Below, piece after piece: positions 5,157-10,360 of a stretch of 64,000 nt of DNA. The stretch's first letter is position 1. Every line of letters starts with the position of its first letter. The notes under the pieces were generated by a model. The model did no database searches. It was not told the origin of the DNA and was given only the letters and a program-made list of their open reading frames with translations. A program made the translations under genes and the position numbers. Source of the DNA: Prochlorococcus sp. AG-347-E03 (GTDB lineage Bacteria > Cyanobacteriota > Cyanobacteriia > PCC-6307 > Cyanobiaceae); assembly GCA_003279115.1 (NCBI GenBank), contig QCBG01000005.1, forward strand, positions 1-64,000, read 5' to 3'.

Positions 5157-5843
5157 TTATGCCACTCTAAATTCTCGTTTCATATTCATTTCAGGCAAGT
5201 CATTCATTGAATCTCTCCATTCCTGGGCCCATTCACTTTGACTATGTCTATAAATTCTAATTAGTTCATCTACAGAAGAATCATGATAATCAACTCTAAG
5301 GTCTAAAAGGGGAAAGCCTAGTTCTCCGCTTACCTTTAAGGCGCTTGAGGTTGAACGGGGGCTTCGTCTATCTCCACCTATATTTTCTCCGGCATTAAGA
5401 GCATCAAGTAGTCTTTTCCCTAATTTGATATTTGGATCACTTTGTTTAAAAACATCAGCCATCACCTCAAGAACTTCAATATTCTCTAGAAAATTGCCAG
5501 CTACAGAAAAGTTTTCTCCACTTATATGTCCGCTTGTCTGAAAACATTCTTGACCTGTCCAGCATGCGCTTCTCCCATACTTATCAATTAAGTGAACCTG
5601 TCTTTTTCCCCTGCCAAAATCTTCTTTAATTAAATCTTCCAAAACAATTTTTGAATCAGAGCAGGATTGGAGTAACTCAAGACTTCTTAATCCTAAATAA
5701 GGATTAGTTTGCCCTTGAGTTGCAACAGCACCAACCTGTGATCTAACAAATGAAACTGTTGAGCCAACAGCTATATGACAAGAAGAAACTGCAACACCAA
5801 ATCTATTTTTTAAAGGATCAAAACCAATAATTGAAAATGTCAT
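5157..5843 (-). CDS. DUF1028 family protein (putative Ntn-hydrolase-like)
   Basis: MTFSIIGFDPLKNRFGVAVSSCHIAVGSTVSFVRSQVGAVATQGQTNPYLG is typical of the DUF1028 N-terminus. 1 nt from the next cluster gene. Confidence 0.85.
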   Translation of the reverse strand: MTFSIIGFDPLKNRFGVAVSSCHIAVGSTVSFVRSQVGAVATQGQTNPYLGLRSLELLQSCSDSKIVLEDLIKEDFGRGKRQVHLIDKYGRSACWTGQECFQTSGHISGENFSVAGNFLENIEVLEVMADVFKQSDPNIKLGKRLLDALNAGENIGGDRRSPRSTSSALKVSGELGFPLLDLRVDYHDSSVDELIRIYRHSQSEWAQEWRDSMNDLPEMNMKREFRVA

Positions 5844-7121
5844 TTATATCATTAGAGGCTTGTCTAAAAAATTCTTATCAATGTAAAATATTGTATTCAA
5901 TAAAACCTCAATACCATTAGCGCATTGATCAAGAGAAGTATATTCCTTATAGGAATGACTCAGACCATTCCTACTTGGGACAAAGATCATAACCATAGGA
6001 CAAATCCTACCTATTTCTTGTGAGTCATGACTTGCTTTGCTTGGTAAAATTCCAGTTTTAAATCCCAACTTTTCAGATTCGCGAAATGAAGATCTCACTA
6101 ATTTAGGGCATGACTTAGTGGGAATCACTTCAAATTGAGGTTCTATCTGTACTACGCATCCAGTAACTTCTTGAATTTCTGAGCATAGATTCTCAATTCT
6201 TAAACTCATTTTCCCAATTACATCTTCATCCAAATCTCTCATATCTATAGTGAATACTGCCTCTCCTGGAATAACATTTGCCGCATTGGGATGTAATTTC
6301 AATTTGCCAACTGTTGCGACTGCACTTTCAGAAGTAGTTTTAGCAATCTGTTCAATGCCAACAATAATTTTAGAGGCGGCCAAAAGTGCGTCATTTCTAT
6401 TTGACATCGGTGTAGTTCCTGCATGATTTGCCTGGCCTGTAACCTTAACCGTTATTCTTTTTTGACCTACTATTCCATTAACAATTCCGATATCCAAACC
6501 ACCATCTTCTAGAACCTTTCCCTGTTCAACATGTAATTCAAGAAAAGCGAATATATCTTTTTTACTTCTTGCTGCACTTTTAATCTCAAGCCAATTTCCA
6601 CCAATCCGAGAAAGATTATGAATTATTGAACAAGAGTTACTGGTAATAAAATCTTCTTCGTTTACGGATAAATTACCTGTAAAGCCTTTACAACCAATCA
6701 TTGTCGATTCTTCATCAGCAAAGACAATTATTTCAAATGGTCTATTTAATTTAATGTCATTTTCCTGAAGGAAAAAAGCAATTTCAATTCCTGCAATTAC
6801 TCCTAAAGTTCCATCGTACTTACCTCCCTTTGGAACAGTATCGAGATGCGATCCAGTAACAATTGGAGGTAAATTATTATCATGACCATCTAATTTTGCA
6901 ATAATATTCCCTGCAGTATCTATTTTTATTTTTAAACCTAAGTCTTTAAGGGTTTTCATAAAAAAATTTCTTGCATATATATCTTCATCAGAAAAACCTC
7001 TTCTTGAAACAGAGCCATTCTCAGAAGCTCCGATTGAAGAAAAAGAATTAATCAATTCTTGGATTCTCTCCCTATTTATTACCTGTGGCTCTAGGATGTT
7101 TAATCCAGCGCTATAGCTCAT
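5844..7121 (-). CDS. Zn-dependent M20-type hydantoinase/carbamoylase (N-carbamoyl-L-amino-acid hydrolase / allantoate amidohydrolase family)
   Basis: TGSHLDTVPKGGKYDGTLGV, FADEES, LELHVEQGKVLEDGGLDIGIVNGIVG, NHAGTTPMSNRNDAL, ASHDSQEIG, GLSHS metal/substrate motifs. Confidence 0.88.
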   Translation of the reverse strand: MSYSAGLNILEPQVINRERIQELINSFSSIGASENGSVSRRGFSDEDIYARNFFMKTLKDLGLKIKIDTAGNIIAKLDGHDNNLPPIVTGSHLDTVPKGGKYDGTLGVIAGIEIAFFLQENDIKLNRPFEIIVFADEESTMIGCKGFTGNLSVNEEDFITSNSCSIIHNLSRIGGNWLEIKSAARSKKDIFAFLELHVEQGKVLEDGGLDIGIVNGIVGQKRITVKVTGQANHAGTTPMSNRNDALLAASKIIVGIEQIAKTTSESAVATVGKLKLHPNAANVIPGEAVFTIDMRDLDEDVIGKMSLRIENLCSEIQEVTGCVVQIEPQFEVIPTKSCPKLVRSSFRESEKLGFKTGILPSKASHDSQEIGRICPMVMIFVPSRNGLSHSYKEYTSLDQCANGIEVLLNTIFYIDKNFLDKPLMI

Positions 7122-7215: not shown

Positions 7216-9228
7216 TCAAACTTTCCAACCCAAATTATCAGCCAACTTTTGAGCTTTATCTGGGATATCTTCAATTATAAAAATCTTATATAAGATCTGA
7301 ACGCTTAAAAGATGATTGATTATTGCATCCAATTGTACTTTTTCTGAGGCATCAAGCTCTGAACTAAAAAATTTATTCAGCAAATTATTTACTTCTGTTT
7401 CATCCAAGATTCCAAATTCTCTTATCCTCTCAGGACTTAAAAACTCATCCACAATTTCCTGCATAGAACTTAAATTATCTTTATCTGCATGAGAAGGGGG
7501 AGCCATAAAAGGAAATTTTTCACGTTTATATAATGATTCAGGCAGCAATCCTGACATGGCTTCTCTTAAAACATACTTCTCAACATTATCTTTAATCCTT
7601 AATTCAGGGGGGACAGCAACAGCAGCTTCAGCTAGGTAATGATCTAAAAATGCAGGTCTTGCCTCCATTGAATTTGACATATCCACTCTATCTCCTCCCC
7701 ATGTGAGAATTTGGCCCTCAAGCATAGTCTTCATCCAAACGTACTGAGCCTGATCAATTGCGTATCTATCTTCTAACTGTTCAAGATCAAGTTCTCCAAA
7801 AATTGCTGCTCCAGGATCATAATCTTCCGTTAACTCTTTATACTTACTTGAGATTAGACTTTTTGCATAAGTTTCACATGCAAGCCAAGGTTGAAGGCAA
7901 CTTGGCGTAAATCCTAAGAATTCCTTGAAAGATTGATTACTTATCTCTTCATTAGCTAGCATCGCGCCCTTGAAAATATCATTTGAATTTTCTAGATTCT
8001 CTTTAAGATTCTCAGATTCTGCATTAGAAATTCCTACCCCATAGGTATACATATCTTTTCTAAAAGCGGGATAGCCGCCAAACAATTCATCTGAACCCTC
8101 TCCTGTCATAACGACCTTATAATCGAGCTCATTCACTCTTTTACTCATAAGGTATTTGGCAATTGCAAGGGTGTTATAAATAGATCTTTCAGTAAACCAT
8201 AGAACCTTTTCAAAATTCCCATACAGATCATCCCCATTTATTTTTAAAATCTCATGATCTGCATTTGTGGCGACAGCCATCTCTTTTGCTATCGCAGTTT
8301 CATCATATCTTTCATCACTGAAACCAATCGTGAATGCCTTTACTGATTTTTGACTTATGGCAGAAGCCAATCCCAAAATTGAGCAACTATCAATTCCACC
8401 GGATAAATAACAGCCGACCGGAACATCAGCGACCATTCTTAATTCGACAGCTCTCAACAATTCTTTTCTAATATTTTCAATAAAATATTCTTCACTTTTT
8501 TCTCTTTCATAAGCGTTTTTCTTTGGGAAATTTATATCCCAGAACTTTTCCTCTGTTATCTGAAATTTATTATTTAATCTTTTGACCTTAAGAATATATC
8601 CAGGCTTAACTTGTTTAACACCTGCAAATGCCGTAGAGCCAGGGACCATAACCTGCATAAGTTGATGAACCAGTCCTTCTCCAGTAAATTTTCTTTCAAC
8701 TGATGGATGGGCAAATAGTACTTTTAATTCAGAGCCAAATATTAAGGAATCATCGGTCTCAATCCAGTATTGAGGTTTAATCCCAAATCGATCTCTTACA
8801 AGATAAAGACAATCCTGATCTGCATCAAACAACGAAAAGGCAAATTCTCCTCTCAAATAAGATAATGACTCATCAATGCCATATTTCTCATAAAGTCTAA
8901 GCAATATTTCCGAATCACTTTTTGAAGAAAAGCTTACGCCCTGAGCAACAAGATCAGCCCTGATTCTTTGAAAGTCATAAAATTCACCGTTATGTGCCAT
9001 CAAAATATTATTTTTAGCACCTCCAATAAAAGGCTGTCTAGCTCGATTTTCATTCAAATCTATTATTGATAGTCTTGCATGACAGAACCCTACAGAAGCA
9101 TCATCTGATAATTTATATCCGAAACCGTCCGGTCCACGATGGCTTTGAATAGCAGCCATATTTACAAGAATCTGAGGTACAACAGATTTATCTTTTGATT
9201 TATTAAAAACCCCCCCTATTCCACACAT
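7216..9228 (-). CDS. asnB: Asparagine synthetase (glutamine-hydrolysing) family amidotransferase
   Basis: MCGIGGVFN (catalytic Cys2), RGPDGFG, MAHNGEFYDF, CYLSGGIDSCSILGLAS PP-loop, MTGEGSDELFGGYPAFR. Confidence 0.93.
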   Translation of the reverse strand: MCGIGGVFNKSKDKSVVPQILVNMAAIQSHRGPDGFGYKLSDDASVGFCHARLSIIDLNENRARQPFIGGAKNNILMAHNGEFYDFQRIRADLVAQGVSFSSKSDSEILLRLYEKYGIDESLSYLRGEFAFSLFDADQDCLYLVRDRFGIKPQYWIETDDSLIFGSELKVLFAHPSVERKFTGEGLVHQLMQVMVPGSTAFAGVKQVKPGYILKVKRLNNKFQITEEKFWDINFPKKNAYEREKSEEYFIENIRKELLRAVELRMVADVPVGCYLSGGIDSCSILGLASAISQKSVKAFTIGFSDERYDETAIAKEMAVATNADHEILKINGDDLYGNFEKVLWFTERSIYNTLAIAKYLMSKRVNELDYKVVMTGEGSDELFGGYPAFRKDMYTYGVGISNAESENLKENLENSNDIFKGAMLANEEISNQSFKEFLGFTPSCLQPWLACETYAKSLISSKYKELTEDYDPGAAIFGELDLEQLEDRYAIDQAQYVWMKTMLEGQILTWGGDRVDMSNSMEARPAFLDHYLAEAAVAVPPELRIKDNVEKYVLREAMSGLLPESLYKREKFPFMAPPSHADKDNLSSMQEIVDEFLSPERIREFGILDETEVNNLLNKFFSSELDASEKVQLDAIINHLLSVQILYKIFIIEDIPDKAQKLADNLGWKV

Positions 9229-9232
9229 CTAT

Positions 9233-10360
9233 TTAAATGACATCCATTACTCTTGTTGTTCTATCCATCAGACAGGTAAGTAATGCCATTCTTACAAATA
9301 CTGCTCCTCTTGACTGAGCAAAATACCAATTTTTTGGTGTCTGATCAAGTGATGTTGACAATTCGGGACCACGAGCAAGTGGATGCAATATTATGGAATC
9401 TTTTTTAAATGGCAACTCACTGTGCAATTTAAATGCACTTCCATGAACCTCATAATTTGCTCCCACCCATGCAATTGCATTTATATAGGTAACGTCCAGA
9501 GAAGGTAATACTTTTTGCATATCCGTCTCCAGCTCAATCTTTAGACCAGATTCAATAAGTTGTTCCAGCTGGCCTTCATCAAATAGATCGTTCTGATCGA
9601 TGGATTTGTCATCGTAAATGACAATAATTTTTTTTATGAAATATGAAAACTTGCAGAATAATTTCAGAAGAGATCTGACTGTTCTCATGCGTGATGGAAC
9701 TCCGATAATACCAATAGTTATTTTTTCACTATCATCAATTGATTTATTAACCAGATGTGGTCTCCATTTAAAAATTGTATAAAGATCTGACATCGCCTGA
9801 GTGGGATGTTCATCGATTCCATTACCAGCATTGATTATTGGAATTCTCAATGACTTTGTCATTTCAAAAATCGCCTCATTGTCACTATCTCTAAGTACAA
9901 TGCAGTCACCGTAATTATTAAACATATGAGCAATATCCAGATGGGTTTCTCCCTTGGCAATTCCAGTGGAACTTTTATCGGTGATATTTATTGAATCGCC
10001 ACCCAGCCTATGCCATGCGCTGTCAAAAGATAATCTTGTTCTGGTGCTTGGTTCATAAAATGCATTTATGAGTATCTTTCCCTTTAGGGGACTGTTATGG
10101 GAAATATATCTGTTTGGATTACTTTCAAATTTTGCCGCCAGCCTAAAAAGTTGTAGAAGACAATCTTTACTAAAGGGGTCTATGGAAATTACATGCCTAT
10201 CCAATAACTCATATAAAAATTCCGCTCTTTCCTTTATTTCAGATAATAAATTCTGAGGATGAGTAGAGCCGTAAATATCGGGTCCGATTCTTGAAAAAGA
10301 AAATGATTTTTCCTTATGTAAGGTTTTTACTTTATATGATCCCAAAATATTAAAGTTCAA
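9233..10360 (-). CDS. Aspartate/ornithine carbamoyltransferase superfamily protein (PyrB-like, atypical acceptor site)
   Basis: FYEPSTRTRLSFDSAWHRLGGD, KGETHLD, NAGNGIDEHPTQAMSDLYTI, ILHPLARGPEL, SRGAVFVRMALL. 4 nt from asnB-like gene. Confidence 0.88.
   Translation of the reverse strand: MNFNILGSYKVKTLHKEKSFSFSRIGPDIYGSTHPQNLLSEIKERAEFLYELLDRHVISIDPFSKDCLLQLFRLAAKFESNPNRYISHNSPLKGKILINAFYEPSTRTRLSFDSAWHRLGGDSINITDKSSTGIAKGETHLDIAHMFNNYGDCIVLRDSDNEAIFEMTKSLRIPIINAGNGIDEHPTQAMSDLYTIFKWRPHLVNKSIDDSEKITIGIIGVPSRMRTVRSLLKLFCKFSYFIKKIIVIYDDKSIDQNDLFDEGQLEQLIESGLKIELETDMQKVLPSLDVTYINAIAWVGANYEVHGSAFKLHSELPFKKDSIILHPLARGPELSTSLDQTPKNWYFAQSRGAVFVRMALLTCLMDRTTRVMDVI

Follow-up and report, generated by a model that had tools for sequence, protein, structure and literature searches.

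A described parallel to the genes treated here is the synthesis of the osmolyte NAGGN, a pathway that is controlled by a MarR repressor and in which the amidotransferase AsnO adds an amide group to a capped glutamine dipeptide (PMC8070244). The NAGGN operon asnO-ngg (TIGR03104; PA3459-PA3461 in Pseudomonas, with the MarR gene PA3458) combines an N-capping enzyme, a GNAT acetyltransferase, with an AsnB-type amidotransferase and a hydrolase, and the resulting osmolyte is neutral and capped at both its amino and its carboxyl end. Another compatible solute is Nα-carbamoyl-L-glutamine 1-amide (CGA), for which no assignment of genes was found in a search of 5.4 million open-licence papers; a report of CGA in cyanobacteria was not found there either. 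Nor did this literature yield an assignment that links DUF1028 with N-carbamoyl compounds or a Prochlorococcus ATCase with an asparagine synthetase, and in the parts searched of papers on picocyanobacterial salinity adaptation the genes described below are not mentioned. As to the enzyme family concerned, Arg167 of aspartate carbamoyltransferase (ATCase, PyrB) binds the alpha-carboxylate of the substrate, and Arg229 and Gln231 bind its beta-carboxylate. Arg167, a residue in contact with the substrate analogue PALA, is kept in position by Glu50, and it is Glu233 that turns Arg229 into the active site (PMC6056424).

The window, a stretch of 64,000 nucleotides from Prochlorococcus sp. AG-347-E03, contains a cassette of four genes (Table 1), in which an ATCase-like carbamoyltransferase is followed downstream on the same strand by an AsnB-like amidotransferase, a hydrolase of the M20 carbamoylase family and a DUF1028 protein. 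Like asnO-ngg, the cassette joins an N-capping enzyme to an AsnB-type amidotransferase and a hydrolase, the capping enzyme being a carbamoyltransferase instead of an acetyltransferase, and the product proposed below would likewise be neutral and capped at both ends. MarR regulator genes, a further feature in common with the NAGGN operon, lie near several of the related clusters. Purifying selection acts on each of the four genes, with dN/dS values of 0.03-0.12 for the carbamoyltransferase and AsnB and of 0.05-0.22 for M20 and DUF1028; on the carbamoyltransferase the selection is strong, the values among Prochlorococcus copies being 0.03-0.09.

Table 1. Features of the cassette, with positions in the window
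Feature	Position	Strand	Basis
N-carbamoyltransferase resembling ATCase, with a non-aspartate pocket; proposed to be a glutamine N-alpha-carbamoyltransferase	9233..10360	-	ORF, profile, alignment, tree and structure evidence
N-terminal extension of ~48 aa relative to the start of E. coli PyrB, conserved in the clade	10213..10360	-	alignment of relatives
240s-loop segment YINAIAWVGA in place of the RxQxER aspartate signature (residues 292-301)	9458..9487	-	alignment
AsnB-like amidotransferase that hydrolyses glutamine and has Cys2; proposed to amidate the 1-carboxylate	7216..9228	-	profiles, tree, adjacency
M20 hydantoinase/carbamoylase-family hydrolase (proposed product recycling)	5844..7121	-	profile scores
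DUF1028 protein homologous to PDB 2IMH; proposed amidase in the recycling branch	5157..5843	-	profile, structure match

The most constant partner of the carbamoyltransferase is the amidotransferase: AsnB, whole or cut by a contig end, lies next to it in 78 of 80 related loci, and the two others are L057, where the contig ends, and Thiorhodospira sibirica, where both genes are present and unlinked, the AsnB falling into the same AsnB clade of the tree. With 428 bits, the AsnB-like protein clears the cut-off of 267 set for the broad asparagine synthase model (TIGR01536), but it stays below that of the NAGGN amidotransferase (TIGR03104, 299 against 570 bits, compared to 985 bits for the true AsnO of Ectothiorhodospira mobilis), and the AsnB proteins of the cassette form a clade separate from the NAGGN amidotransferase and from other AsnB paralogues. 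The M20 protein, which is encoded nearby in most of the 80 loci, exceeds the cut-off of the hydantoinase/carbamoylase subfamily (TIGR01879), to which the ErtE / allantoate amidohydrolase family also belongs, but stays below the cut-off of the N-carbamyl-L-glutamate amidohydrolase ErtE (383 against 520 bits), which nevertheless is its second-best NCBIfam model and the best one in Synechococcus. DUF1028 was found only in picocyanobacterial versions of the cluster, and in Ectothiorhodospira its place is taken by an isochorismatase-family hydrolase that weakly resembles biuret amidohydrolase. Cyanobium sp. ATX 6A2 has its DUF1028 gene (L037, 13145-13870) in inverted orientation between the AsnB and M20 genes, and the order of the recycling genes is therefore not fixed. 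In Synechococcus, in Cyanobium and in most of the versions from proteobacteria, a sodium:solute symporter is encoded ahead of the carbamoyltransferase; Prochlorococcus and Ectothiorhodospira have none in this place.

The carbamoyltransferase has 375 aa and a TTG start, upstream of which there is no in-frame ATG. A preliminary description of this DNA had noticed an N-terminal extension of roughly 40 aa; the extension is real, amounts to about 48 residues ahead of the E. coli start, and is found throughout the clade, with P35, L38, E44 and L49 being invariant. The protein was aligned with E. coli PyrB and with the PyrB and OTCase proteins of its host genome and of six other carriers. None of the carbamoyl-phosphate residues has been lost (E. 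coli S52/T53/R54/T55, K84, R105, H134 and Q137), in agreement with the motifs FYEPSTRTR, AKGETHLD, HPTQA and SRMRTVRS that had been read from the sequence and that are all present in the open reading frame. It had also been noted that MRHP aligns to LRDS, which is correct, the catalytic Arg105 within the motif being nonetheless kept, and that LHPLPR has become LHPLARG, which appears in the alignment as P268->A. Another change outside the loop is S80->G. The 240s loop itself is about 6 residues shorter than in E. coli PyrB and shows the changes T228->N, R229->A, Q231->A, K232->W, E233->V and R234->G, so the earlier reading that YINAIAWVGA lacks Arg229 and Gln231 holds, also as to its position (Table 1). 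This replacement is a property of the clade and not of a single protein: the loop YINA/SIAW(V/E)G is fixed in 39 sequences from cyanobacteria and proteobacteria, the positions of R229 and Q231 are occupied by Ala (or Ser) and Ala in the tabulated representatives, and Asn294 and Trp298, which correspond to E. coli 228 and 232 and differ from both PyrB and OTCase, are invariant in all 39 relatives. E. coli R167 and E50 are kept. Because Arg167 is retained together with its partner Glu50, the alpha-carboxylate of the acceptor is probably still bound, and the loss would be confined to the recognition of the side-chain carboxylate; as judged from these residues, the acceptor would be an amino acid that offers an alpha-carboxylate and whose side chain is neutral.

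Which neutral amino acid this may be is suggested by the distribution of the cassette. The strain used in the 1991 isolation of CGA was reportedly DSM 4180. E. mobilis DSM 4180 possesses a homologue of the carbamoyltransferase with 58% identity (L082), next to which AsnB, M20 and the isochorismatase-family hydrolase are encoded. DSM 4180T is listed as E. marismortui (PMC7824335), and E. mobilis and E. marismortui are synonyms (PMC1224877), as is also found in the taxonomy. E. marismortui is the only reported producer of CGA, which is described as a minor solute there (PMC3857566). The producer species thus carries the cluster, and the chemistry of CGA matches the two core enzymes of that cluster. 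The genome of E. mobilis DSM 4180 encodes exactly three proteins of the ATC/OTC family, one with an OTCase loop (L089), a PyrB with RLQRER (L095) and the cassette homologue, which judging by these sequences is the only one of them that has no assigned job. The pair of carbamoyltransferase and AsnB is also encoded by E. magna and T. sibirica; for T. sibirica no osmotic-stress genes were annotated, E. magna has no genes for betaine or ectoine synthesis, and in the passage on these two organisms CGA is named among the candidate alternative solutes (PMC7824335). E. mobilis DSM 4180 in addition encodes a clear NAGGN amidotransferase (L114, 778-2547; the TIGR03104 match given above), and as a true AsnO and the cassette are both encoded, E. 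mobilis can probably make both capped-glutamine solutes.

Based on comparative genomics and on the one producer strain, it is suggested with a probability of about 0.62 that the cassette makes and recycles CGA as an osmolyte. The carbamoyltransferase would transfer the carbamoyl group of carbamoyl phosphate to L-glutamine, resulting in N-alpha-carbamoyl-L-glutamine, and in doing so it would use the conserved phosphate/carbamoyl site and the Arg167-Glu50 contact; in place of the Arg229/Gln231/Glu233 clamp for the side-chain carboxylate there is a loop whose Asn and Trp are invariant. The AsnB-like protein would then, by analogy with AsnO in NAGGN synthesis, use ATP and glutamine to amidate the 1-carboxylate, which would yield CGA. 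As CGA differs from glutamine by just an N-carbamoylation and a 1-amidation, it fits the two most tightly linked genes. When the salt concentration falls, the M20 carbamoylase and an amidase would together return glutamine, CO2 and ammonia, the amidase perhaps being DUF1028 in Prochlorococcus and the isochorismatase-family hydrolase in Ectothiorhodospira, and the Na+:solute symporter of Synechococcus and most proteobacterial versions may retrieve or import the solute. The preliminary description had proposed a non-aspartate acceptor, possibly less acidic or amide-containing, in connection with AsnB, and this idea gains support from the separate PyrB (see below), from the clade-fixed change of the pocket and from the near-universal adjacency of AsnB.

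The assignment to CGA is weakest where it names glutamine, and no other neutral amino acid, as the acceptor, and where it relies on the single documented producer. The same two-step chemistry might act on another acceptor, such as asparagine, and then result in an N-carbamoyl amino acid amide that serves as osmolyte or nitrogen store. The loss of Arg229 and Gln231 with Arg167 being kept predicts a neutral side chain without naming it, so asparagine or another neutral amino acid would suit the pocket as well, and the gene-neighbourhood evidence is identical to that for CGA. This is nevertheless rather unlikely, as glutamine is the parent of the one carbamoylated and amidated amino acid that has been characterised in a carrier species and as the M20 protein scores well with the N-carbamyl-glutamate hydrolase model, albeit under its cut-off. 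Much less probable is a degradative role, in which the symporter would import carbamoylated amino acids, M20 and DUF1028 would cut them, and the carbamoyltransferase would work phosphorolytically to generate carbamoyl phosphate. The M20 protein, DUF1028 or the isochorismatase-family hydrolase, and the symporter are indeed all of catabolic or transport type, but the closest partner of the carbamoyltransferase is an ATP-dependent amidotransferase of a biosynthetic type, and the Prochlorococcus versions have no adjacent symporter and yet keep all four enzymes.

With regard to its descent, the carbamoyltransferase is close to PyrB and distinct from it. Both ATCase/OTCase domains of Pfam (PF02729/PF00185) are recognised in the protein, which stays below every NCBIfam cut-off for ATCase or OTCase (191 against 237 bits in case of TIGR00670 and 183 against 263 in case of NF002032). 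The best matches among solved structures are ATCases, with 1ezz as top entry, which reads LHPLAR and thus has an Ala at position 268 like the Prochlorococcus protein. The AlphaFold2 model (mean pLDDT 81, poor in residues 1-25 and 104-109) has the ATCase fold, with a TM-score of ~0.85 when normalised by the target. In the tree, the 39 relatives constitute one clade with a support of 100 beside the ATCases and away from the OTCases, the exact place of the clade among the ATCases being unsure due to some long branches. The true pyrB lies elsewhere in the genome, which encodes three members of the ATC/OTC family, namely an OTCase (L001), a separate PyrB with an intact RLQKER (L002) and the cassette protein, and six further carrier genomes likewise have exactly three members each, with two copies in these carrier genomes left unclassified. 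A second, divergent aspartate carbamoyltransferase that acts beside an ordinary asparagine synthetase in no special pathway is very improbable and a second PyrB is rejected, since, for all the ATCase fold, the ATCases as closest structures and the AsnB score above the broad asparagine synthase cut-off, the genome has a PyrB with an intact RLQKER, the protein scores below every ATCase cut-off, R229, Q231 and E233 have been lost across the clade, and the cassette AsnB stands apart from the NAGGN type and other paralogues. An OTCase- or YgeW-type enzyme is also rejected on the basis of loop and tree, the alignment showing neither the DxWxSMG loop of OTCase type nor the HCLP motif, and no family cut-off for ornithine, putrescine or N-acetylornithine carbamoyltransferases or YgeW is reached. 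What is shared with PyrB, its nearest relative in the tree, are the fold, the carbamoyl-phosphate residues and Arg167/Glu50, whereas the clamp, Ser80, Pro268, the loop length, the N-terminus and the scores for all ATCase equivalogs differ. The protein is thus probably an ATCase-related carbamoyltransferase of new specificity and is filed as such, not as PyrB.

The gene is present in 35 of 266 Prochlorococcus genomes (~13%), or in 12 of the 87 good ones, and is therefore not essential for marine life. Among 386 sampled cyanobacteria it was found in 17 genomes, all of the same family, and one genome of that family (G379) has two copies on contig 1 (1682796-1683869 and 2535827-2536906). Relatives also occur in Kangiella, Pseudoalteromonas, Alteromonas, Nitrosomonas halophila, Ectothiorhodospira and Thiorhodospira, and we take the named hosts to be marine, halophilic or soda-lake organisms. 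Two contigs probably have misleading labels. The contig JAKQYF010000253.1 (L010) is assigned to Trichodesmium sp. MAG_R03, but its cassette is 96-97% identical to that of Prochlorococcus, and it has most likely come into the Trichodesmium bin as a contaminant from Prochlorococcus. The cassette on NYVG01000026.1 (L040), a contig under the name Gammaproteobacteria (CPC316), is of Synechococcus type and includes symporter and DUF1028, and this contig is probably misbinned.

In the window, the cassette is located between dxr and the gene of a 2Fe-2S thioredoxin-like protein, and in six other Prochlorococcus genomes hardly any sequence separates dxr from that gene, which leaves no space for an insert. 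Two of these six (G410 and G422) have the carbamoyltransferase elsewhere, and the other four showed none. In MIT 9314, the same four genes are found at another site, downstream of an apparent ribonucleotide reductase. With its differing chromosomal sites and the empty sites, the four-gene cassette is a mobile unit in Prochlorococcus. A scan of viral contigs gave no relative, and a phage-borne gene was rejected. In a cassette-free Prochlorococcus genome (G397; L127, 642-1495), the dxr site contains an unrelated insert of ~850 bp, in which no remnant of the cassette was found (only matches of at most 24 bases), suggesting that the dxr site takes up different inserts.

The carbamoyltransferase gene can readily be taken for PyrB and the AsnB-like gene for an asparagine synthetase, which would be a pitfall for annotation. 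If the assignment to CGA is right, genes would be found for a compatible solute that has been known since 1991 and has had no pathway in the literature searched, and a carbamoyltransferase specificity would be added to a textbook enzyme family. It would also predict an osmolyte with as many as four nitrogen atoms per molecule in some of the most abundant phototrophs of the ocean, which would be surprising in cells that economise nitrogen.
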